A DNA stretch of 58,995 bases from an uncultured Acidimicrobiales bacterium (GTDB lineage: Bacteria > Actinomycetota > Acidimicrobiia > Acidimicrobiales > SHLQ01): positions 1 through 58,995 of the forward strand of contig CALHTF010000083.1 in assembly GCA_938038815.1 (NCBI GenBank). The letters are read 5' to 3'. A model generated the notes under the pieces. It ran no database searches, had not been told where the DNA came from, and was given only the letters and a program-made list of their open reading frames with translations. Shown here one piece after another: positions 43,188 through 56,040 of this stretch (the first letter of the stretch is position 1; each line of letters opens with the position of its first letter). Made by a program: the position numbers and the translations under genes.

Positions 43188-44495
43188 TTAGCCGGTGGTC
43201 GGCGGCGTGGTTTCGTCGGGGGCGAGGGTGGTCGGCGGGGGTGGTGGCGGCTCGGCGGGCGCCGCAGGGTCGAGAACAACCGACAGTTCGGGGAAGCCGT
43301 TGGTGACCTTTACCAGGCCGAGTCCGCGGGGCGTAAAGATGTTGCCCTTGGAGAAGATCGCGTCTTCGAGCACCAATTCGTCGAGTGTCCGCCCCGACAG
43401 CGCAGCGGCGAGGTCTACCCCTTCGAGGGAGCCGGTTTCGGTGGCGACCGCTTCCAAGAGTCCGATGATCGAGATTGAGGCAATGTCGGCACCACCGCGG
43501 AATGCAATGTCGAGATCGTCGAGGATCTGATTCTCCGACGCGGTGCGAGGCCCATAGAGACCCGTCCAGGAGACAAAGGTCAGTTCGGACAGGCCGTCGA
43601 TCTTTTCCACCCAGAACAAGTTGTCGCCCTCGGTTCCGGTGAAGATGGGGGTGTCGGGATCAACTTCGCGGATCTGGGTTACGACGGCGACGAGATCGTT
43701 GACCGGCGCACAAACCACGAACACGTCGGGCGCTTCAAACTGGGCAACCGACGACCCCACCTCGGCCCGACCGATCCCACCCAAGCCGTACTCGACAGTG
43801 GCCGTGATCTGGCCTCCCGAGAATTGGAATCGGTCCGAGAACGACGAGCACTGCTCAAATGACGACTCGCCGGCAAGCGAGCTAACGGTGAGCGCAGTCG
43901 ATGCTTCGTTGTCGATGGCGTGATCGGCCAAGACGATGCCCTGGGCCATATCGGGGGCCTCGAGCGCAAACGCCAGATCGCCAGCGTCGGTGCCAAAGGT
44001 CGAGTTCGACAGGCACGGCGACATGACGAGCACCCCTTGGTCGACCGCCAGTTCAGCAGCCGGGATCACCGTCTCGGGTTCGCAGCCCACAATGATGAGC
44101 CGGGCGCCGCGCCGCAGTTGATCCTCGACAGCATCGAGCGTGATGTCGACATCGTTGGCGCCATCGACCACTTCGAGCCCTACCGGTTCGCCGAGCAGGC
44201 CACCCCGGCCGTTCAGGTTGTTCACCGCTGCGATCACATATGGAACGAGATCGGCTTCTGTGTCGCGAGCCGTCGTCGTGAGGTCGACCACCATCGCCAC
44301 CCGAACCGAACCGGGGATCTCGGGGAACTCGATCTCGGCCAACACCGATGCGGGAGGAGCGTCGGACCCAATCCCCGCTTCATCGTCGTTGCCAACTACC
44401 GAACAACCCGCAACAACCAACACCAGCGCAAGGAGCCGAACGGCAGCGATTGCGGTCCTATGGCCGATAAACGGCCGATTCCGATCAGAAACCAT
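43188..44495 (-). CDS. ABC-type amino-acid/amide binding lipoprotein (Peripla_BP_6)
   Basis: 435 residues. Lipoprotein signal with lipobox VVAGC (about residue 31). Type I periplasmic-binding fold as in LivJ-like proteins: VPYVIAAVNNLNGRGGLLGEPV, LIIVGCEPETVIPAAELA, LVMSPCLSNSTFG and TPIFTGTEGDNLFW. Ends in a Pro/Thr-rich tail. No permease or ATPase genes of a Liv system adjoin, so it is an orphan receptor or works with a distant transporter. Divergent from the giant surface-protein gene. Confidence 0.85.
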   Translation of the reverse strand: MVSDRNRPFIGHRTAIAAVRLLALVLVVAGCSVVGNDDEAGIGSDAPPASVLAEIEFPEIPGSVRVAMVVDLTTTARDTEADLVPYVIAAVNNLNGRGGLLGEPVGLEVVDGANDVDITLDAVEDQLRRGARLIIVGCEPETVIPAAELAVDQGVLVMSPCLSNSTFGTDAGDLAFALEAPDMAQGIVLADHAIDNEASTALTVSSLAGESSFEQCSSFSDRFQFSGGQITATVEYGLGGIGRAEVGSSVAQFEAPDVFVVCAPVNDLVAVVTQIREVDPDTPIFTGTEGDNLFWVEKIDGLSELTFVSWTGLYGPRTASENQILDDLDIAFRGGADIASISIIGLLEAVATETGSLEGVDLAAALSGRTLDELVLEDAIFSKGNIFTPRGLGLVKVTNGFPELSVVLDPAAPAEPPPPPPTTLAPDETTPPTTG

Positions 44496-44506
44496 GAACG
44501 ATCAAC

Positions 44507-44520
44507 GTTACCGGTGTAAC
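44507..44520. promoter_or_regulatory. Small palindrome in divergent promoter region of the giant gene
   Basis: Perfect GTTAC-CGGT-GTAAC inverted repeat inside the 151-base region between the lipoprotein gene and the giant gene. It could be an operator acting on either promoter. Evidence is only the symmetry and the position. Confidence 0.3.
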
Positions 44521-44646
44521 CAGCGGACCGGTCTCGGACATGCGACCACAGGACGGACCCTTATTTGGGGGCTTCGCCCATTCGATCGCCGTTCGAGTTC
44601 AATTTTCGCTCGAGATGTCGAAGGAGTCCTGAGGTTTCGACCTCCG

Positions 44647-47600
44647 ATGTACTACCGCCGCCCCGCTACGAAATCTGAGTTTATGTCGTATCGACCTTTC
44701 GCCTCCCTGCGTCACCTTGCGGTCGCGCTGCTCGCTGTGCTTGCCGTTCTGGCTTCGACCCTGGTCATCGCGGCCCCTCTTCCGGCGGAGCTCGGCCTCT
44801 TTTTGAACCCAGCGGCTGCCCAAAGTGGCGGAGGCTCATGCCCGCCGAACAGCACCTTTCTGACCGAGTTCAACTGGTCGTCCGCTCCTGGCGGAAGCGA
44901 CAACCCCGCAGGAGCCGACGGCGCGACGTGGCCAGCGAACACCACGAACAAATCGTGGACCAACGTTGGCGGCAGCGGACTCGATGTAACCATCGGCCTC
45001 ACCGGCACCGTGATCGACGGCAACAACGGCGGAACGGTCGGACCAGGCGCGGTTGGTACAATCGACGGGTTCCCAACCGGAACCAACGAAGGTGGAACCC
45101 AGGGCGGCAATGACGGAGCGTATGGCTCGGACTACTTCACCTTGGCGATGTACTCCGAGTCCAGCGATGCACCGGTGGAGATGAGCTTCGACTTCTCGCG
45201 GCCGGTTTTCTTCGCCTCGGACTTCACCGTCGATGACGTCGACTGGATCGGTCACCTCAGCAATAACCCGATCCCGGCAAACGGTTTCCAAGACGAGGTT
45301 GCCTTTACGGCAACCGGTCCAACCGGCGACGTTCCGGTTGGGCTCGCAATCGTCAGCCAGACCAACCAGAACTTCATCACCATCACCGGCCAGTCGGCCA
45401 AGGCCGACCCGTACGACCAAAACGGCGGCACCAACCTGCAACCTACGGATCCGGCTGGCCAGGTACTGATCTCCACACCCAAGCCATTCACGAACCTCAC
45501 CATCGACTACTCCAATGGCCCCGAGGATCAAGCCGCAGAGATTGCCGATGCCAACAACCCCGGCACGTGGGATGGCGTAAGCAACGGCCATGCGGTTCGA
45601 CTCGGCGGATTTACCCTCTGTGAGCCATTCGATGCCAGCTTGACTCTCGACAAGACCGCCTATCTTGGCCATGACTCCGGCGCCGCGTGTACCGGCGCTG
45701 ACTTGGTGACCGGCGCCATCCCGGGCGAAGCCATCACCTACTGCTTCGACGTGACCAACACTGGCCAGGTTGCCCTCGACACCTTCTCCATCACCGATGC
45801 TGCGCTTGGCCTAACCAATGCCGTCCCGCCCGAGGTTCAAGTCGTGAGCGGCACAACACCTGTCGCCCCCGGTGCGACCATTTCGTTCTACTACGAGGCA
45901 TCGGCGCCACTCACCGACCTGGTGAACAGCGCAACCGCGGAAGCGATTCCCGTCGACGCGGCCGGAGATCCCATTACCTTCCTCGACCCCGTTACCCACA
46001 CTGACACCGCAACCGTTGAGACGATGTCGCCGGCCGTGTCACTCACCAAAGATGTTGTGCTCGGCCATCAGTCAGGAGCCAACTGCGGCTCGGCCACCGA
46101 TTCGGCGGCGATCGTGTCCGGCACGGCGGTGACCTACTGCTTCACGGTGACCAACACTGGCGACCTTCCCCTCGCCAACATCGATATCCAAGATGCAACC
46201 CTCGGCAGTCCCGCCATCACCCAGACCGTTGCACCCGTCGCGCTGCCACTCGCCCCCGGTGCGTCGGTGGTCTACTACTTCGAGGCCACCGCTACCGGAA
46301 CCCTTACCAACACGGCTGCGGTATCGGCCGACCCAACCAACCCCGACGGGTCGCCAGTGCCGGGCGCGACGCCGGTAACTGACTCCGACACCGCAGTGGT
46401 GACCGAAGAGGCTCCTGCGATCGAATTGCAGAAATCGGCCTCGACCGACGGCACGTGCCCGGGCGGCGAACTGGTGAACCAGATCAACGGAGCAACGCTG
46501 AGCTACTGCTTCGAAGTATCCAACACCGGAACAACCCACCTCGCCAACGTTTCGATCGCCGATGCCGATATCTCGGGCTTCAATCCGGCAAACCTTGTAC
46601 CGGTGACCGGGTCGCTCGCGCTGATCGCCCCGGCCGAAACCGTCGTGGTGCGCTACGACACAACCGCCACCGTCGACGTCATCCCAAACACCGCAACCGC
46701 AACCGGTGACCCCGCCGACCCGGCAGGAGATTCCCTCGGGCTAAACGCGGTCTCTGATGACGACACCGCAGCCGTCGATGTTGTTGCCCCCTCGATCTCG
46801 CTCGTCAAAACGGTGGTTCCGGCTGGTTCGACCTGTCCGGGCATCGATGCCACCACGTTGGTCGTCGCAACCGGTTCGAGCGTCATCTACTGCTTCACCG
46901 TCACCAACACCGGCGACACCGACCTCACCGGCGTGGTGGTCGATGACCCTGGCCTGGGAATTGCCGGTCTCGCCGTCGCTGACCTTGCCGTCGGTGCTGC
47001 TGCAACGGTTGCGGCGCCCTCCAGCGTTGCCACCGATACGACGAATATCGCAACGGCGACCGGAACGCCGGCCAACGGGACCACACCTCTCGCAGGCATC
47101 GCGGCGGTAAGTGACACTGAGGAAGCAATCGTCGATGTCGTGACCCCCGCTGTCGCGCTCGACAAGACCGTCGTCGGCGGTTCCGACGTCACGCTTTGCC
47201 CTGGCTCGGAAACCTTGGCCGCCGGATTCGGCGTAGCGATCACCTACTGCTTCGCGGTAACCAACACCGGCCAGACGCACCTCGACATGGGCAACTTTGC
47301 CTTTAACGACGCAACGCTCGGCATCACCGCCGCCGATCTGGTTCCCGTGGGTGCGCCGACCGACCCGTTGGCTCCCGGCGGCACGAACACCTACGCGTTC
47401 ACGACAACGATGGACGTCACGGAAACAAACACTGCCGACATCGCAGCCGACCCCGTGGACGCCGCCGGCAACCCTATAAGCGGAGCATCGCCGGTCACCG
47501 ATAACGACATCGCCGATGTTGTTCTTGCCTCCCCGGCAATCGGCATCGTCAAGACGGCCTATGCGGGCACCGATGGCGGAGCCAGCTGCCCCGGAACCGA

Positions 47601-50600
47601 TACGACCACCGTCGAAGCCGGAGCGGCGATCACCTACTGCTTTGTGGTCACCAACACCAGCACGGACACCGCCCTCGCCAACGTCACGATCGATGACACG
47701 ACGCTCGGCGAAACCTACCCCGGCAACATCACGTTGCTTGCCGGCAACCCCGCACTTCTGCAGACCGGCGAAGCCGCCACCTTCTACCTCGACGCGACCG
47801 CGACGGGCGACATCACCAACACCGCCGAAGCCACCGGTGCCCCTTCCGACGCATCAGGAAACCCCGTTGCCGCTCCGGCCCCGACCGCCTCCGACCCAAC
47901 AACGGTCGATGTCACCGCACCGGCGATCGAACTCGCGAAGACCGTGTACCCAGGTCACGATGCTGGCGCATCGTGTAGTGGCACCGAGATCGTCAACGGC
48001 ATTGCGGCAGCAGCGGTTACGTATTGCTTTACCGTCACCAACACCGGTGACACCGCGCTGAGTGGCGTGAGTGTGAGCGATCCTGCGCTGGGGATCTCGT
48101 TGCCGATTCCGGGAGTACTTCTCGTCGGGGATTCGGTCACGGTCTTCTCCGAGTCGACCATCACTGGCGATTTGACCAATACGGCAACCACGTCGGGCGT
48201 ACCCTCGACGGCCGCCGGTACCCCACTTGGTCTCACGAACCCGACCGACGTCGACGATGCCCAGGTGAATGAGATCGCCCCATCGGTCTCGATAGACAAG
48301 ACCATCTATGTCGGGTCCGATGCAGGCGCATCGTGCGGTTCGGCCACCAACTCTGCGCTCACCGTCGCAGGGAGCACGGTCACCTACTGCTTCCTGGTAA
48401 CCAACACCGGCGACACGTACCTTTCCGACCTGACTATCGACGACCCAACCCTCGGTGTTTCGATCGGTAGCGCCAACGAAGCCGCGGTCAGTGGAACGTT
48501 GGCCACCATTGCGCCGGGAGCCTCGGCGGTCGTGTACCTCGAGGTCGTCGCCGGGGCGACCGATGTCGCCAACATTGCGTCGGTTACCGGTAACCCAACC
48601 AACGCGATCGGCGCCGATCTCACCGGTGCTCCCGATCCGACCGACACCGATGACGCTCTGATGAACGTCCTCGCACCGAGCGTCGAGATCGCCAAGACCG
48701 TTTCGGTCGATGGCACGTGCCCGGGAGTCGAGACGGTCTCGCTGCAGCCAGGTACCGCCGTGTCGTTCTGTTTCGCACTAACCAACACTGGCGATACGTA
48801 CCTCGCTGATCTCACGATCGACGATGACATCTATGGCGTTCTTGATTCGGCGAGCACGTCCGCCGTCGCCGGCAGCCTCGCTCTGGTCGCGCCGAGCGAA
48901 ACCATCGTGGTCCGGTACGACACGACCAGCCCTGCAGCCGACCAGGTCAACACCGCATCCACCACCGGCACACTATCAAACAGCGCTGGTTCGCCGCTCG
49001 GCATTGGAGACGTAACTTCTCCCGACGACACCGCCGAGATCCTAGTGATCGGCCCAGGTTTGACCCTTACCAAGACGGCAGTCGCGGCGGGTGCTGCGTG
49101 TACCGGCGTCGACGGCGCCACTCTTGAGGTGGCGGCGGGAACCGATGTTACCTACTGCTTTGAAGTCACCAATACCGGCGACACCTACCTCACCGATGTC
49201 ACCGTTGACGACCCAACCCTCGGCGTCACTGGTCTCGCCGTGGCTGACCTCCCCGCCAACGGCGACAGCAACGTTGTGAGCTTCGGTCCGGTGGCCGCGA
49301 CGAATGTCGTCAACACCGCCCAAGCCATCGCTACTGCTGCCGACCCAACCGGTACCCCGCTGCCGGGCGTACCCTCGGTCGACGACACCGACCCAGCACA
49401 GGTCGATGTCTTGACTCCCGCGATCACTCTCGAGAAGACGGTTGTGCCGGGATCCAACGTGAACGACTGCCCTGGCGCAGAACTTGTCAACGCCCAAAAC
49501 GGCGTGGCGGTGGTCTACTGCTTCGTCGTGACCAACACTGGCGATGCGCCGCTCGCCAATATCAGCGTCACCGACCCCGACCTCGCCTTCGGAGCTACCG
49601 ACCCGACACTGGTTAGCGGGACGATTCCGCTCGCGCCGGGCGCAAGCGCTACGTACGGCTTCGCAACCACGATCACGGGCGATCTGGTCAATACCGCCAA
49701 CGTATCCGGCGACCCGCTCACTTCTGGCGGCGCCCCCCTTCCCGGCGCTGGGCCGGTTAGCGACACCGACACGGCCGAGGTCACCGAAGCAGAGGCGTCG
49801 CTCAGCTTGGTAAAGACTGTCTACGCCGGCCATGACGCTGGCACTTCTTGTGGTGGCACCAACTCGTACTCCGGCCTCGTCGGCGACGCGGTTACCTACT
49901 GTTTTGTGGTCACCAACACCAGCGCGACGACAACGATGTCGAGCACCTCGGTCGACGATCCGAACCTGAACCCAATCACCCTGGTTGCGTCGGGTGCCAC
50001 GACCCTTGCGCCTGGCGAATCGGTTGTGTTCTACGCCGAAGACAACCTCACCGCCGACCTGGTTAACATCGCAACCGCGTCGGGGATTCCATCGGCCGCC
50101 GACGGTACGCCGTTGCCCGACGCGACGGCGATCGATTCACCACCCGACACCGCCACCGTCGACGTGAATGCACCGGCTATCGCCCTGTCGAAGACCGTCT
50201 ACGCCGGCCACGACGCGGGAGCGTCTTGCGCAGGTGCAGAACTCGCTTCAGGCCTCGTGGGCGCTGCGATCACCTACTGCTTCGAGGTCACCAACACCGG
50301 CGACATCGACCTGACCGACATCTCGGTGAACGACCCAACGCTTGGTATCAACCTTGCGGTTCCCGGCCCGATTGCCCCCGGCAATTCGGCCACGGTGATC
50401 TTTGAATCGACGATCACGAGCAACCTCGTGAACACCGCAACCACGAGCGGAACCCCTTCGACACCGGCAGGTGCTCCTCTCCCCGGTCAACCACCGGTCG
50501 TCTCGGCTCCCGATGATGCCGAGGTCGTTACCGTCGACCCGGCCATAACCTTTGACAAGTCGGTATACGCGGGCCACGACGCTGGCGCTTCGTGCAGTGG

Positions 50601-53600
50601 CTCGGCGCAGATATCAGGACTCGCTGGCGACCTGGCAACCTACTGCTTCGAGGTCACCAACACCGGCGACACTGCGCTCGCCATCGAAATCGACGACGCC
50701 ACGTTGGGTCTTGACGCAAGTAACCCGCCAACCGTTGTTTCGGCGCCGGCGAGCTCGCCGCTGCTCGGCGCCGGCGAGTCGATCGTGTACTTCGCCCAAA
50801 CGGTACTCAGTGGCGACCTGGTCAACACCGCCACGGCAACCGCCACGCCGGTCGACCCCTCAGGCGACCCTCTGCCTGGCGTTCCGTCTATCGACGAAAC
50901 CGACTCGGCAATTGTCGACGTCGTCGATCCAGCGATCCAGGTCGACAAGACGGTTTCGTCGACCGGTAGCTGCCCCGGCACCGAACTTGTGTCCGGCAAC
51001 CTTGGCGACCCGGTCATCTATTGCTTCACCGTCACCAACACCGGTGACACTGCTCTGGCCACCGTGTCGCTTAACGACACCACGCTGGGCATCACCGACG
51101 CCGACATGGTTCTCACTTCGGGTTCGCTAGCGCTGCTCACCGTCGGCGAATCGGCGACTCTGCAGTTCGCTTCGACCATCACCGGCGATCTTCTCAACAC
51201 CGTCACCGCGACCGGAACCCCGTCGTCGCCCGGTGGAGCTCCGCTCGGCCTAGCCGACGTGGCCGACGACGACACCGCGGAAGTTGATGCGATCGCACCC
51301 GACGTCACGTTGGTGAAGACCGTGTCGGTCGACGGCACGTGCGCTGGACAAGCCAGCGCCCTTGTCGGCAGCGCTGCACCGATCATCTACTGCTTTGAAG
51401 TTACCAACAGTGGCGACACCCACCTCTCGGGCCTGACCCTTACCGACCCAACACTCGGTCTGTCGCTCAGTGATCCGACCGTCCTCGCGCCGAGCGAGTC
51501 GATCATGTTGTCGGCTCCGGCCACCGCAACGCTCGACGTGGTGAATATTGCGTCGGTTGCGGCAACCCCGTCTGCCCCCGGCGGTGCGCCTCTTGCTGAT
51601 GTCGACCCGGTGGCCGACACCGACCAGGCGACGGTTGATGTCGTCTCGCCAAGCATCGAACTGACCAAGACGGTCACGGCCGGAACCTCGTGCCCTGGCC
51701 TTGGCCAACTAACCGGCGGCGAAGGCGTGGCCCTCACCTATTGCTTTGAGGTCACCAACAACGGCACCACCCACCTCGACCTTTCCACCATGGTGTTCGA
51801 CGATCCAACCCTTGGCATCACCGCTGCGGACCTCACCACCGTCACCAGCGCAAGTTCGCCACTCGCTCCCGGCGATTCGGCCATGTTCTCCTACAGCGGG
51901 GCAACGATCCCCGCCGGCGGACAGCTCAACACCGCGACCGTCGCTGCCGATCCCGTCGATGCAACCGGCGTCCCCATCGCTGGCCCATCGGGCCCGCTGG
52001 GACCAGTTGACGACCTTGATACTGCTGAGGTGCTCGAAGCCGAAACAGCGATTGCACTCACGAAGACGGTGTATGTCGGTAACGACGGCGGCAGCAACTG
52101 TCCCGGGATAAACGACGCAGTGGTCGAGGTTGGCGACTCGCTCACCTACTGCTTTGTCGTCACCAACACCAGCGCGACGGCATCGTTGGCGAACGTCACG
52201 ATCGACGACACCACCCTCGGCGAGACGTACCCAGGAAACATCACGTTGCTCACCGGTGATCCGACGCTGTTGGCCCCGGGCGAATCGGCAATCTTGTACC
52301 TTGACGCCACTGCGTCGGGCGACCAGACGAATACCGCTTCGACAACGGGCGAACCAGCAGACGCGGCGGGAACCGCACTACCAAGCCTGACCGACCCGAC
52401 CGCATCTGACACCGCCTTGGTCACCACCGCTGCACCAGGTATCACCATCGACAAGACCGTGTACGAGGGGCACAACGCGGGCGCCCTTTGCGGTACCGCA
52501 AGTGCGGATGATTTGGCCTACGGCGTTGCCGGCCAGCCCGCAACGTATTGCTTTACGGTCACCAACACGGGCGATACCCACCTCTCCGGAATTACGGTGG
52601 CCGACCCGACCCTCGGCATCACGTTGTCCGATCCGGCGCTGCTCGCTCCTGGCGCAAGCGTCACCGTGTTCGCCGAGTCGACGATTTCCTCCGACCTGGT
52701 AAATAGCGCCACCGCTACCGGCCTACCCACCGATCCGAGCGGTACCCCGTTCGCCGATCTCGATGCGCCGCTGTCGGCCCCCGACGACGCTGAGGTGGTT
52801 GTAGTAACTCCCGACCTCACGCTGGAGAAGTCGGTCTACGCCGGCGCACACGACGGTGGAGCTCGATGCGCTACCGCAGCGACCGAACTTGCAAGCGGCC
52901 TGAGCAGCGAGCCCGCTACCTGGTGTTTCACCGTGACCAATAGCGGCGACGTCGATATGGCATCGGTCGAGATCAGTGACCCCTTGCTCGGCCTCGATGC
53001 CTCGACAACCCTGCTTGTCGTCGCAGGTACCATGCCGCTCGCGCCGGGTGACACGATCACCTACGCTTTTGAGGGCACCATCGATAGCGATCTCACCAAC
53101 GTCGCCACGGCGGTTGGTAGCCCACTCGACCCCAACGGCAACCCGCTGCCCGACACGGTGTCGGATCCGACCGACCTTGACGGTGCACAGATCGAACTGA
53201 TCGATCCGCAGATCGAACTGGTCAAAACAGTCAGCGTCGACGCAACCTGTCCAGGCGCATCGTCCGCCTACGGAGAAAACGGCGACGGGTTGACCTACTG
53301 CTTTGCGGTCACCAACACCGGCGATACCGAGCTGGTCAATGTGACGCTCGACGATTCGCCCCTTGGAATTACCGATGCCGACATGACCGTCGTGTCAGGT
53401 TCGCTCAGCCAAATCCCGGCCGGAGAAACCGTCGTGCTGAGCTACGACACGACCCTTGCGGGCAACCTGGAGAACATTGCCACCACCGAAGGTCAGCCCG
53501 GAGACGGCTCGGGTGCGCCCCTGCCCGACGTCGACCCGGTCATCGCCGCAGCACAGGCGAACGTCTACGAAAGCGCTCCGCAGATCAGTTTGACCAAAAC

Positions 53601-56040
53601 CGCTTCAACCTCCGGCGTATGCCCTGGAAGCGGACGGGTTGAGACATCGGTCGATGCGCCGATCACGTGGTGCCTCACGGTCGCCAACACCGGAGATACC
53701 CATCTGAGCAACCTGGTGCTCATCGACGCTCAACTGGGCCTCGACGGAACCAACCAGTCTGTACTTCTCACTCCCGATCCCGCAGGCGTGATCCTTGCTC
53801 CCGTAACTGACCCGTCAGCGTTCACCGGCGAGACGATCACCTTCGCGATCACCGCAACCGCCGACGCGGACACCACCAACTCGGCCCAGGTCTCCGCCTC
53901 AGCCGTTGCGCCTGATGGTTCCCCGCTTCCCGGTTCGGTCGAAAACGTTGCCGCCCCCGATACCGCAGAGATCGATGTTCTTACCCCGGCCATCGAGCTA
54001 GAAAAGACCGTGTCCGCCAACGGCACCTGCCCCGGCGCCGACACGCTTGCCGCAGGTGCAGGCTTTGGTGTGACGTACTGCTTTGTCATAACCAACACCG
54101 GCGAAACCCCACTAGACGCCTTGACCATCGACGATGCCGATCTTGGCGTCACCACCAGTGACCTCACGCTGGTCGGCATTGCCGACGACGACGATGCACT
54201 TCCCCTGTCAGTTGGCGGTACCGCCACCTACTCGGTGGAAGCGACCGTCACGACCGACCTCGTGAACACCGCAACCGCTACGGGTGCACCGTTAACCTCG
54301 TCCGGCGACCCGTTGCCGGGCCCCGACGGGAACCCAACACCTCCAGTTGAGAGTACCGACATCGCAACCGTTGTCGCTGCCGACTCCGCCATCGCCATCA
54401 TCAAGACCGCCTACGTTGGCCATGACGCCGGCGCCAACTGCCCCGGAGTCGCTACGACTTCGGTCGATTCAGGGGCCGACATCACCTATTGCTTCAACGT
54501 GGTCAATACCGACCCCACGAATCATCTTGCGGACATCACGATTGACGATCCGAGCTTGGCTGCTTCTTTCCCCGGAGACCTGGTTCTTCTGTCGGGCGAT
54601 CCGACCGACCTCGCTCCGGGCGAAACGGCGACGTTCTTCTATGAAACAACGGCGACCGGTGATCTCGTGAACACGGCCTCGACCACCGGCACCCCCACCG
54701 ACCCGAGCGGTACCCCGTTGCCCGGCGTTGAGCCGCCGACCGATGAAGGATCGGCCACTATCGACGTTGTCGGACCCGCAATCGATATCACCAAAGCGGG
54801 TTATCTTGCCCAGGATCAAGGCGCTCAGTGTCCCGGAACCGACCCGATCGTCGGCGTAACCGGCACGGCGATGACCTGGTGCTTCTTCGTCACCAACACC
54901 GGCGATACCGCGCTGTCCGACGTCACGGTAACCGACCCCGACCTTGGAATCACCCTCACCGAACCAGGCGTACTTCTGCCTGGTGCGAGTGTCACGCTGT
55001 GGCACGAGGCCACCCTCGACCAGGAGTACACCAACACCGCACAAGCGACCGGCGTACCCTCATCGCCAAACGCTATCCCCCTCGCAAATGTGTCGGCGCC
55101 AACTGCGACCGATACCGCGGTTGTCGACCTCGTAGCGCCTCAGATCTTCGTGGAGAAAGCGCTCTACGAAGGCAATGACGGCGGTGCTGGGTGCCCCGGC
55201 GAGAACCAGATCGTCGCCGATCACGGCGTAGACGTGACCTGGTGCTTCCGAGTCAGCAACATCGGCGATACCTATTTGTCCGACATCGAGATCGAAGACG
55301 AACCGCTCGGCCTTACCACCGAAGACTTCACCGTCGCCTCGGGTTCGACTCCCCTTGCTCCTAGGGAGGCGATCTACTACTTCGCCGTCACCGAGGTCGA
55401 TGATTCGATGATCAACGATGTTCTCGTGACCGCGACGCCCTACGCTGACCCGGCCGGCACACCGATCCCGGTCACCGAACCGGTAGAGGAAACCGACACC
55501 GCCATTCTGGAACGCACCCCGTTCGATCTGGAGATCATCAAGACCCTCGATTCGGTCGATGCAAGTCGACGAACCGCCCGGTGGAAGCTCGTTGTGACCA
55601 ACAACGGCCCAGGAACAGCCGCTGGTCCGCTGACGGTGACCGATCCCCTTCCGTCTCAACTTGGCTTCGTCGACACCAGCAGTACCGCGTTCTCTTGTGG
55701 TGCGAGTGGCCAGCTGGTCCGCTGTGTTTCGCCGGGAGATCTTGCGGTGGACCAGAGCATCGAGCTGTTTGTCGATACGTCAATTTCTTCGTCGGCCTCG
55801 GGCACCATCAACAACGCGGCCACGGTGTCGTCTCCGCTCTCTACCGACGCCCTGCTCGGTGAGACAACACTCGACAACAACGAGTCCGCGGCCCCGGTCG
55901 AAATCGGTCCGAGCGGTAACCCTCAGGTTGCCTTTACCGGGTCGAGTACCGACGTATTGGTCCAAATTGCCTTGATCCTGATCACCATTGGTGCCTTGTT
56001 CATGGGCATCATGGCCAGCCGGCGGCGCCGAGATTCCTAG
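44647..56040 (+). CDS. Giant DUF11-repeat cell-surface protein with sortase-like tail
   Basis: About 3,797 residues from the ATG at 44647 (GAGG 12 bases upstream); a second ATG at 44683 is possible, and the frame before 44647 reads as non-coding. Parts: signal peptide (AVALLAVLAVLASTLVIAAP) ending near NPAAAQS; an N-terminal beta-rich domain of about 270 residues with a Cys at each end (GGSCPP … TLCEP); 26 repeats of 117-137 residues, each with KTV, a Cys-Pro/Ser-Gly, TYCFxVTNTG, D-x2-LG and NTATxxG; a final DUF11 domain without the TYCF Cys; then VAFTG (55927-55941), a membrane helix and RRRRDS. This is the layout of a wall- or membrane-anchored adhesin or stalk. The repeat region is rich in Asp, Thr and Ala and very poor in Lys and Arg. 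Ligand unknown. Confidence 0.9.
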   Translation: MYYRRPATKSEFMSYRPFASLRHLAVALLAVLAVLASTLVIAAPLPAELGLFLNPAAAQSGGGSCPPNSTFLTEFNWSSAPGGSDNPAGADGATWPANTTNKSWTNVGGSGLDVTIGLTGTVIDGNNGGTVGPGAVGTIDGFPTGTNEGGTQGGNDGAYGSDYFTLAMYSESSDAPVEMSFDFSRPVFFASDFTVDDVDWIGHLSNNPIPANGFQDEVAFTATGPTGDVPVGLAIVSQTNQNFITITGQSAKADPYDQNGGTNLQPTDPAGQVLISTPKPFTNLTIDYSNGPEDQAAEIADANNPGTWDGVSNGHAVRLGGFTLCEPFDASLTLDKTAYLGHDSGAACTGADLVTGAIPGEAITYCFDVTNTGQVALDTFSITDAALGLTNAVPPEVQVVSGTTPVAPGATISFYYEASAPLTDLVNSATAEAIPVDAAGDPITFLDPVTHTDTATVETMSPAVSLTKDVVLGHQSGANCGSATDSAAIVSGTAVTYCFTVTNTGDLPLANIDIQDATLGSPAITQTVAPVALPLAPGASVVYYFEATATGTLTNTAAVSADPTNPDGSPVPGATPVTDSDTAVVTEEAPAIELQKSASTDGTCPGGELVNQINGATLSYCFEVSNTGTTHLANVSIADADISGFNPANLVPVTGSLALIAPAETVVVRYDTTATVDVIPNTATATGDPADPAGDSLGLNAVSDDDTAAVDVVAPSISLVKTVVPAGSTCPGIDATTLVVATGSSVIYCFTVTNTGDTDLTGVVVDDPGLGIAGLAVADLAVGAAATVAAPSSVATDTTNIATATGTPANGTTPLAGIAAVSDTEEAIVDVVTPAVALDKTVVGGSDVTLCPGSETLAAGFGVAITYCFAVTNTGQTHLDMGNFAFNDATLGITAADLVPVGAPTDPLAPGGTNTYAFTTTMDVTETNTADIAADPVDAAGNPISGASPVTDNDIADVVLASPAIGIVKTAYAGTDGGASCPGTDTTTVEAGAAITYCFVVTNTSTDTALANVTIDDTTLGETYPGNITLLAGNPALLQTGEAATFYLDATATGDITNTAEATGAPSDASGNPVAAPAPTASDPTTVDVTAPAIELAKTVYPGHDAGASCSGTEIVNGIAAAAVTYCFTVTNTGDTALSGVSVSDPALGISLPIPGVLLVGDSVTVFSESTITGDLTNTATTSGVPSTAAGTPLGLTNPTDVDDAQVNEIAPSVSIDKTIYVGSDAGASCGSATNSALTVAGSTVTYCFLVTNTGDTYLSDLTIDDPTLGVSIGSANEAAVSGTLATIAPGASAVVYLEVVAGATDVANIASVTGNPTNAIGADLTGAPDPTDTDDALMNVLAPSVEIAKTVSVDGTCPGVETVSLQPGTAVSFCFALTNTGDTYLADLTIDDDIYGVLDSASTSAVAGSLALVAPSETIVVRYDTTSPAADQVNTASTTGTLSNSAGSPLGIGDVTSPDDTAEILVIGPGLTLTKTAVAAGAACTGVDGATLEVAAGTDVTYCFEVTNTGDTYLTDVTVDDPTLGVTGLAVADLPANGDSNVVSFGPVAATNVVNTAQAIATAADPTGTPLPGVPSVDDTDPAQVDVLTPAITLEKTVVPGSNVNDCPGAELVNAQNGVAVVYCFVVTNTGDAPLANISVTDPDLAFGATDPTLVSGTIPLAPGASATYGFATTITGDLVNTANVSGDPLTSGGAPLPGAGPVSDTDTAEVTEAEASLSLVKTVYAGHDAGTSCGGTNSYSGLVGDAVTYCFVVTNTSATTTMSSTSVDDPNLNPITLVASGATTLAPGESVVFYAEDNLTADLVNIATASGIPSAADGTPLPDATAIDSPPDTATVDVNAPAIALSKTVYAGHDAGASCAGAELASGLVGAAITYCFEVTNTGDIDLTDISVNDPTLGINLAVPGPIAPGNSATVIFESTITSNLVNTATTSGTPSTPAGAPLPGQPPVVSAPDDAEVVTVDPAITFDKSVYAGHDAGASCSGSAQISGLAGDLATYCFEVTNTGDTALAIEIDDATLGLDASNPPTVVSAPASSPLLGAGESIVYFAQTVLSGDLVNTATATATPVDPSGDPLPGVPSIDETDSAIVDVVDPAIQVDKTVSSTGSCPGTELVSGNLGDPVIYCFTVTNTGDTALATVSLNDTTLGITDADMVLTSGSLALLTVGESATLQFASTITGDLLNTVTATGTPSSPGGAPLGLADVADDDTAEVDAIAPDVTLVKTVSVDGTCAGQASALVGSAAPIIYCFEVTNSGDTHLSGLTLTDPTLGLSLSDPTVLAPSESIMLSAPATATLDVVNIASVAATPSAPGGAPLADVDPVADTDQATVDVVSPSIELTKTVTAGTSCPGLGQLTGGEGVALTYCFEVTNNGTTHLDLSTMVFDDPTLGITAADLTTVTSASSPLAPGDSAMFSYSGATIPAGGQLNTATVAADPVDATGVPIAGPSGPLGPVDDLDTAEVLEAETAIALTKTVYVGNDGGSNCPGINDAVVEVGDSLTYCFVVTNTSATASLANVTIDDTTLGETYPGNITLLTGDPTLLAPGESAILYLDATASGDQTNTASTTGEPADAAGTALPSLTDPTASDTALVTTAAPGITIDKTVYEGHNAGALCGTASADDLAYGVAGQPATYCFTVTNTGDTHLSGITVADPTLGITLSDPALLAPGASVTVFAESTISSDLVNSATATGLPTDPSGTPFADLDAPLSAPDDAEVVVVTPDLTLEKSVYAGAHDGGARCATAATELASGLSSEPATWCFTVTNSGDVDMASVEISDPLLGLDASTTLLVVAGTMPLAPGDTITYAFEGTIDSDLTNVATAVGSPLDPNGNPLPDTVSDPTDLDGAQIELIDPQIELVKTVSVDATCPGASSAYGENGDGLTYCFAVTNTGDTELVNVTLDDSPLGITDADMTVVSGSLSQIPAGETVVLSYDTTLAGNLENIATTEGQPGDGSGAPLPDVDPVIAAAQANVYESAPQISLTKTASTSGVCPGSGRVETSVDAPITWCLTVANTGDTHLSNLVLIDAQLGLDGTNQSVLLTPDPAGVILAPVTDPSAFTGETITFAITATADADTTNSAQVSASAVAPDGSPLPGSVENVAAPDTAEIDVLTPAIELEKTVSANGTCPGADTLAAGAGFGVTYCFVITNTGETPLDALTIDDADLGVTTSDLTLVGIADDDDALPLSVGGTATYSVEATVTTDLVNTATATGAPLTSSGDPLPGPDGNPTPPVESTDIATVVAADSAIAIIKTAYVGHDAGANCPGVATTSVDSGADITYCFNVVNTDPTNHLADITIDDPSLAASFPGDLVLLSGDPTDLAPGETATFFYETTATGDLVNTASTTGTPTDPSGTPLPGVEPPTDEGSATIDVVGPAIDITKAGYLAQDQGAQCPGTDPIVGVTGTAMTWCFFVTNTGDTALSDVTVTDPDLGITLTEPGVLLPGASVTLWHEATLDQEYTNTAQATGVPSSPNAIPLANVSAPTATDTAVVDLVAPQIFVEKALYEGNDGGAGCPGENQIVADHGVDVTWCFRVSNIGDTYLSDIEIEDEPLGLTTEDFTVASGSTPLAPREAIYYFAVTEVDDSMINDVLVTATPYADPAGTPIPVTEPVEETDTAILERTPFDLEIIKTLDSVDASRRTARWKLVVTNNGPGTAAGPLTVTDPLPSQLGFVDTSSTAFSCGASGQLVRCVSPGDLAVDQSIELFVDTSISSSASGTINNAATVSSPLSTDALLGETTLDNNESAAPVEIGPSGNPQVAFTGSSTDVLVQIALILITIGALFMGIMASRRRRDS
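45640..47925 (+). repeat. Super-repeat unit 1 (repeats 1-6)
   Basis: First six-repeat block, 2286 bases. Its third repeat has TDGTCPG and SLALIAPAETVVVRYDTT, its fourth GLAVADL, its sixth VTNTSTDTALANVTIDD and YPGNITLL; these class marks recur at the same places in later blocks. Confidence 0.75.
47926..50178 (+). repeat. Super-repeat unit 2 (repeats 7-12)
   Basis: Second block, 2253 bases. Repeat 7 begins the class KTVYPGHDAGASCSG with GISLPIPGVL; repeat 9 carries SVDGTCPG and VVRYDTT, repeat 10 GLAVADL, and repeat 12 VTNTSATTT, matching repeats 3, 4 and 6. Confidence 0.75.
50179..52440 (+). repeat. Super-repeat unit 3 (repeats 13-18)
   Basis: Third block, 2262 bases. Repeat 13 matches repeat 7 (GHDAGASCAG, GINLAVPG, ATTSGTPST); repeat 17 matches repeat 5 (THLD … GITAADL); repeat 18 matches repeat 6 almost word for word (LANVTIDDTTLGETYPGNI). 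Confidence 0.75.
52441..54780 (+). repeat. Super-repeat unit 4 (repeats 19-24)
   Basis: Fourth block, 2340 bases. Repeat 19 shares SAPDDAEV with repeat 13, repeat 21 shares GITDADM and SGSL with repeat 15, and repeat 24 has the NTDPTNHLADITIDD variant of the class-6 repeats. Confidence 0.75.
54781..55506 (+). repeat. Partial super-repeat unit 5 (repeats 25-26)
   Basis: Two repeats only. Repeat 25 matches class 1 (GITLTEPGVLLPGASV), repeat 26 class 2 (GLTTEDF). The most diverged pair: Trp replaces Tyr in TYCF (TWCF) and Ala replaces Thr after the lysine. It borders the final DUF11 domain. Confidence 0.7.

Follow-up and report, generated by a model that had tools for sequence, protein, structure and literature searches.

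The window, by which we mean the whole stretch of DNA analyzed here, is an entire contig of 58,995 bases from a 168-contig genome rated 92% complete. Its forward strand carries an open reading frame (ORF) at 44140-56040, within which the gene for a giant stalk protein likely starts at MSYRPF (44683-56040; 3,785 residues if the start is at 44683); the database version of the same protein, P0002, has 3,797 residues and would start at 44647. From the N to the C terminus, the protein consists of a hydrophobic leader, an N-terminal domain, 26 DUF7507 repeats, one DUF11 domain and a terminal VAFTG motif with a hydrophobic stretch and RRRR. The leader, in which basic residues are followed by a hydrophobic stretch to about AAAQS, is a predicted signal peptide region (44683-44820, the end being approximate). 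The N-terminal domain (44821-45627) is beta-rich in a low-confidence model and likely an adhesive head. The 26 repeats at 45628-55515 bear out the description of a giant 26-repeat surface protein in the first-pass annotation of this DNA, and they are followed by the DUF11 (CLIPPER) domain (Pfam PF01345; 55525-55893, residues 3796-3918 of P0001) and by the sorting-signal-like VAFTG motif, hydrophobic stretch and basic tail (55927-56037). Eight neighboring ORFs were tested, of which six match enzyme or binding-protein families and two gave no family match.

The repeats match DUF7507 (CLIPPER_2, PF24346) over 25 stretches, scoring 646 bits against a curated cut-off of 27. Lys9, Cys21, Cys38, Asn43, Asp56 and Asn89 occur without variation in all 77 repeats taken from three genomes, and across 138 repeats of five proteins the sole exception is one lysine of P0005; the Lys, Asp and Asn set is present in every one of the 26 window repeats. 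For DUF7507, the available text of PMC12617251 predicts an isopeptide set of Lys, Asp and Asn, and it puts the share of CLIPPER_2 domains with disulfides at 34.9%. With the same residue types, K9, D56 and N89 are predicted to form a Lys-Asn isopeptide bond, and the two invariant cysteines a disulfide. An AlphaFold model of the repeat is all-beta (pLDDT 97.6), and its hits in structural comparison are Ig-like folds of a generic kind, including pilin and ester-bond domains; the solved CLIPPER structure is not among the matches listed, and a sequence search of the PDB with the repeat profile returned nothing at E ≤ 0.1. Taking approximately 4 nm per Ig domain, as given for titin in the accessible part of PMC7427331, we estimate that the chain of 27 domains would form a covalently braced rod of approximately 110 nm.

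The genome contains one sortase match (contig C43), for which the best NCBIfam model is class E, although the score of 148 bits falls short of the cut-off of 160. According to the sections of PMC5148588 at hand, sortases of class E use LAXTG signals, and the sorting end of the stalk protein, VAFTG rather than LAXTG, is a near match only; from these features the protein is a possible class E sortase substrate. Three more large DUF7507-containing ORFs of the same genome (L032 and L033, contigs C124 and C99 of G000) end in PLAFSG followed by a hydrophobic stretch and a basic tail, possibly a shared variant of the sorting signal. The N-terminal domain is much rarer than the repeats: of 397 genomes in the order it was found in only nine, which belong to two families and include the window's own. 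Its model has a pLDDT of 59.7 and its PDB matches all lie above an E value of 0.001; CBM32 and the heads of staphylococcal and streptococcal adhesins are among the first, a resemblance that is a lead only.

The first-pass annotation had proposed, from motifs recurring at every sixth repeat, that the array follows a six-repeat super-period. We aligned the 26 repeats, compared them all against all and permuted their order, and found that pairs separated by a multiple of six are indeed more alike (mod-6 z = 8.0, 0/1000 shuffles). Mean identity is 0.455, 0.447 and 0.426 at lags 6, 12 and 18, and 0.358-0.406 at all remaining lags up to 23; the two pairs at lag 24 give 0.33 and the single pair at lag 25 gives 0.354. 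Periods of five and seven score negatively (z = -1.6 and -3.0), and periods 2, 3 and 12, which have multiples in common with six, score 3.6-3.9. A triad as the base unit was rejected, since repeats three apart show no elevated identity (0.38) and the mod-3 score of 3.9 hence stems from the multiples of six. The nearest relative of a repeat lies in its own modulo-6 class in 17 of 26 cases (3.5 expected) and is its neighbor in the array in only one of 26, adjacent repeats being 40% identical on average. The period also appears in the indel patterns by themselves (z = 6.7, 0/5000) and in the 115 near-gap-free columns by themselves (z = 7.8, 0/5000).

The individual motifs fared unevenly. Distances between equivalent lysine codons are exactly as annotated (2286, 2253, 2262 and 2340 bases), and NTS or NTD occurs in repeats 6, 12, 18 and 24 and in none of the other 22. 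Among the start marks assigned to repeats 3, 9, 15 and 21, GSL is found in all four and in no other repeat, but RYDTT occurs at 3 and 9 only, and the GTCPG-like start is not exclusive, as it is also in repeat 23 and has variants in repeats 15 and 21. The GI-x-L-xx-PG loop attributed to repeats 1, 7, 13, 19 and 25 is present in 7, 13 and 25, takes a longer form in 19 and is absent from 1. The pairs 5/17 and 6/18 had been named as the closest; 6/18 is the best pair (0.62), but 7/13, 13/19 and 7/19 all exceed 5/17 (0.52).

A further class feature is the length of the loop from the conserved lysine to the first cysteine, counted in residues. This runs 12 12 8 9 11 12 both in hexad 1 (repeats 1-6, 45628-47913) and in hexad 2 (repeats 7-12, 47914-50166), 12 12 8 8 8 12 in hexad 3 (repeats 13-18, 50167-52428), 12 13 8 8 8 12 in hexad 4 (repeats 19-24, 52429-54768) and 12 12 in the partial fifth hexad (repeats 25-26, 54769-55515). 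The lengths are equal in 72.7% of the 44 multiple-of-six pairs (null 33%, 0/20000), and part of the class signal is located in the cysteine loop. The pattern suggests two block types, A (hexads 1 and 2) and B (hexads 3 and 4), in the order A-A-B-B plus two repeats.

In a phylogeny of the 26 repeats the modulo-6 classes group together, as the first-pass annotation had anticipated, with eight class changes where the minimum is five and the shuffled mean 17.5 (0/200). Class 3 forms one group, while 141 of 500 shuffles give an equally low count for class 1, whose clustering is thus no better than chance. Of the 23 inner forks, 13 are open. The classes disagree on which hexads are sisters, classes 3 and 4 giving 1+2 and 3+4 and classes 5 and 6 giving 1+3; the history of the blocks is therefore probably mosaic. 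A 12-repeat block, which had been offered as an alternative unit, is not supported: the mod-12 score is 3.6 against 8.0 for mod 6, identity at lag 12 is not above that at lag 6, and loop lengths pair hexads 1+2 and 3+4. A unit of 12 survives only as a minority signal in classes 5 and 6.

Relatives of the protein show how such arrays differ. P0004, from a genome of the same genus (G003), has 26 repeats that align 26:26 with those of the window without gaps, at 0.48-0.74 identity, and loop lengths are identical at all 26 positions. Matched individually, 23 of the 26 P0004 repeats are closest to the window repeat at their own position, with 7, 14 and 18 slightly closer to another. P0003 has 32 repeats, and differs from P0004 by three mismatches in 3,805 aligned residues and one gap of 753 residues, which equals six repeats. 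Identity in register between its repeats 8-13 and 14-19 is 0.74-0.90, but between repeats 7 and 13 only 0.62, which makes repeats 8-13 the best placement for the duplicated block. The loop string of the additional block is 12 12 8 9 11 12, each of the five longest runs shared within P0003 lies at lag 6, and repeats 13 and 19 share an identical tract of 42 residues. The two copies are nearer each other than either is to the window; judged by these identities, the duplication likely took place after the split from the window's lineage. P0004 has likely either lost one copy or had the two merged during assembly at the 42 identical residues of repeats 13 and 19; it comes from a metagenome assembly, and its missing block may be such an assembly collapse. 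A further same-genus orthologue (L012, contig C22 of G001) has nine repeats at nearly the spacing of the window, and its frame stops approximately 120 bases before the contig end, likely at an assembly edge.

P0006, from another genus of the family (genome G006), has 25 repeats and, as its loop lengths suggest, is without position 14. In P0005, which has 29, triads have been amplified around repeats 14-22, and identity at lag 3 reaches 0.84. No hexad is significant within P0005 (mod-6 z 0.0) or P0006 (z 1.9) taken singly. In a tree of 83 repeats from the window, P0003 and P0006, which was quick, used few columns and took the P0006 class labels from our own mapping, there are again eight class changes (shuffled mean 54.2, 0/200); that mapping disagrees with the array alignment at repeats 18-19. 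Since the classes cohere in a tree that includes P0006, the block duplications that built the hexads are likely older than the split of these genera.

To place the window array within its domain family, we scored 1,659 candidates from a protein search and listed 120 homologues, P0002 included; these were gathered by similarity to the window protein and are not a census. A run of at least 14 repeats is present in 101 of the 120 (window included), and 39 of these 101 arrays have a significant super-period (0/1000 shuffles each, maximum over periods 2-12): period three in 19, two in ten, six in four, four in four and ten in two. Three of the four period-6 arrays are the window's protein, P0003 and P0004, and one further array has period seven at p 0.004. 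Many of the arrays are orthologous, forming 15 families at 38% identity, six of them with a period. A lag-1 z above 3 occurs in one of the 39 super-period arrays versus 31 of the 62 arrays that have none.

Constancy of repeat number is seen in two sets of these proteins. Seventeen of approximately 6,040-6,140 residues (P0044, P0047, P0051, P0054, P0057, P0060-P0062, P0065, P0069-P0071, P0079, P0082 and P0084-P0086), some of which bear Microbacterium, Salinibacterium or Schumannella names, carry exactly 48 repeats each, with period three, a fixed count despite much divergence; in P0086 six scores marginally above three. P0043, P0049, P0056, P0058, P0063, P0074 and P0076, Frigoribacterium names included, have 39 repeats each and period two. 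The window's own genome has a second giant array (L031, contig C134 of G000), whose ORF runs from approximately 3402 to the contig end with 27-28 DUF11-like repeats; its mod-6 score is 5.6 with 28 repeats and 5.4 with 27, mainly from one block, repeats 10-14 versus 16-20. Homology between the hexad classes and this array was considered and rejected, as no cyclic shift stands out (0.231-0.245).

Taken together, the trees, the loop-length pattern, the repeat-by-repeat orthology and the six-repeat difference between P0003 and P0004 support growth by duplication of whole six-repeat blocks, as first proposed. We consider it highly likely that the array is a six-domain super-repeat produced by tandem duplication of whole CLIPPER_2 (DUF7507) blocks through recombination between equivalent repeats, probably before the genera split. 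The mechanism would be unequal homologous recombination between equivalent repeats, copying six domains of the stalk at a time, with these events probably preceding the separation of the present genera. Each domain is predicted to adopt an Ig-like beta-sandwich fold secured by a disulfide and by an isopeptide bond between Lys and Asn. The resulting rod of 27 domains, putatively anchored by a class E sortase, would hold the N-terminal head away from the cell. In this lineage, duplication by blocks would have lengthened the stalk without placing near-identical domains side by side.

The hexad could instead be a functional register, as in titin, in which each class contributes its own loop or partner once per six domains and the order is kept by selection. 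The class marks do persist although third codon positions are saturated at every lag, loop length agrees with the same-genus relative at each of the 26 positions, and the cysteine loop holds some of the class signal. The surviving marks are explained equally well, however, if the protein evolved slowly after an old duplication. P0006, with 25 repeats, has apparently lost position 14 and P0005, with 29, has amplified triads. Homologous arrays have periods of 2, 3, 4 and 10, and such different lengths within one domain family argue against a structural unit fixed at six domains. Six repeats do not make up an obligatory unit, and the suggestion that the hexad may be a structural one is disfavored. 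We know of no partner or ligand of the stalk, and regard a functional register as quite improbable.

In codon alignments the excess at lags 6 and 12 is confined to codon positions 1 and 2. The matching fraction at third positions is 0.37-0.41 for each of the lags 1-24 (chance 0.35), which indicates saturation of the silent sites. Within the gene, exact DNA matches reach at most 34 nt, in a pair at lag 1, and at multiples of six they reach at most 21 nt; Tandem Repeats Finder reported no array here. On these three grounds the copies in the window are old, and we looked for and found no sign of recent duplication or DNA-level instability in it. Copy-number change by simple homologous recombination should therefore be rare in the window's own lineage. 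The proposal that the hexad is a recombination unit is supported historically and in a relative, but the blocks of the window itself are too diverged for easy changes in copy number.

These data also bear on whether similarity within the classes is being maintained, in the lineage of the window itself, by continuing gene conversion or recombination between repeats that lie six apart. Conversion would cause the kind of conflict over sister hexads seen among the classes, 9 of the 38 exact DNA matches of at least 15 nt in the array lie at multiples of six where approximately five are expected from their share of pairs, and repeats 13 and 19 of P0003 carry the 42-residue identical tract. Against this, the longest match at a multiple of six in the window is shorter than that at lag 1 and third positions show no lag-6 excess; already disfavored for the window, this explanation is very unlikely. 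That the period is an artefact of motifs chosen by eye has a next to negligible chance, for although some of the cited marks fail (the loop missing from repeat 1, GTCPG in repeat 23, RYDTT in two of four), the motif-free statistics on whole repeats, indels and near-gap-free columns all yield it and the permutation tests already refute such an origin.

Growth of the window stalk by duplicated blocks of domains is most likely akin, by analogy, to that thought for the giant muscle proteins titin and nebulin. Nebulin is built from a different domain family, and its repeats are not Ig-like. What the window array has in common with such super-repeats is a significant period above the level of the single domain (z 8.0 at six, 0/1000). 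Titin likewise consists of tandem Ig-like domains with a higher-order period, in 7- and 11-domain super-repeats, but the available text describes an intracellular eukaryotic protein of mixed Ig and Fn types, with a period matched to the thick filament (PMC7427331). Nebulin likewise grew by several domains per step, often in mid-array, and has a seven-domain period detected by autocorrelation of domain similarity; the same excerpted survey finds domain repeats far commoner in eukaryotes than in prokaryotes and proposes that selection against aggregation may favor multi-domain growth (PMC1553488). A bolder reading, which we hold to be unlikely, would make these proteins bacterial titins, isopeptide-locked stalks built on clade-specific super-repeats of 2, 3, 4, 6 or 10 domains, in which a six-domain register would space distinct surface loops and fix the length of the rod.

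Among bacterial proteins, the closest counterparts are the CLIPPER_2 (DUF7507, PF24346) fibrillar adhesin stalks, with which the window protein has in common the Pfam match, the Lys-Asp-Asn set, the cysteine pair, a long tandem array and predicted secretion; the accessible portion of that study presents tandem and alternating CLIPPER/CLIPPER_2 domains and describes no super-period, unlike that of the window array (PMC12617251). Periscope proteins are likewise bacterial surface stalks of tandem domains in changeable number, their length changing by way of highly identical repeats, but in the excerpt at hand they were detected by repeats at least 80% identical, whereas the best pair of the window reaches 62% and adjacent repeats average 40% (PMC8201768). 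The giant adhesin of Mobiluncus mulieris, with 51 Ig-like domains, is similarly a Gram-positive giant stalk with per-domain cross-links and presumed domain duplication; it differs in mixing ester and isopeptide domains, and a super-period is not mentioned in the text available (PMC10619420). BadA of Bartonella is described, in the part of the report at hand, as reshuffled within a repetitive gene island (PMC8859334). Among the open-access papers listed, judged by titles and the starts of abstracts, we found no description of a super-period in DUF7507 stalks or bacterial adhesins.

Block-wise growth, known from titin and nebulin, is indicated here in a bacterial cross-linked stalk. The DUF7507-type arrays suggest two modes of growth, one with a super-period and neighbors that are rarely more alike, the other with no super-period and neighbors that often are, and the two make it testable across one domain family whether block duplication avoids the misfolding of like neighbors. 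The repeat numbers of P0003 and P0004, 32 versus 26, offer a possible natural experiment on how such arrays change, although the 26 of P0004 may reflect assembly collapse.
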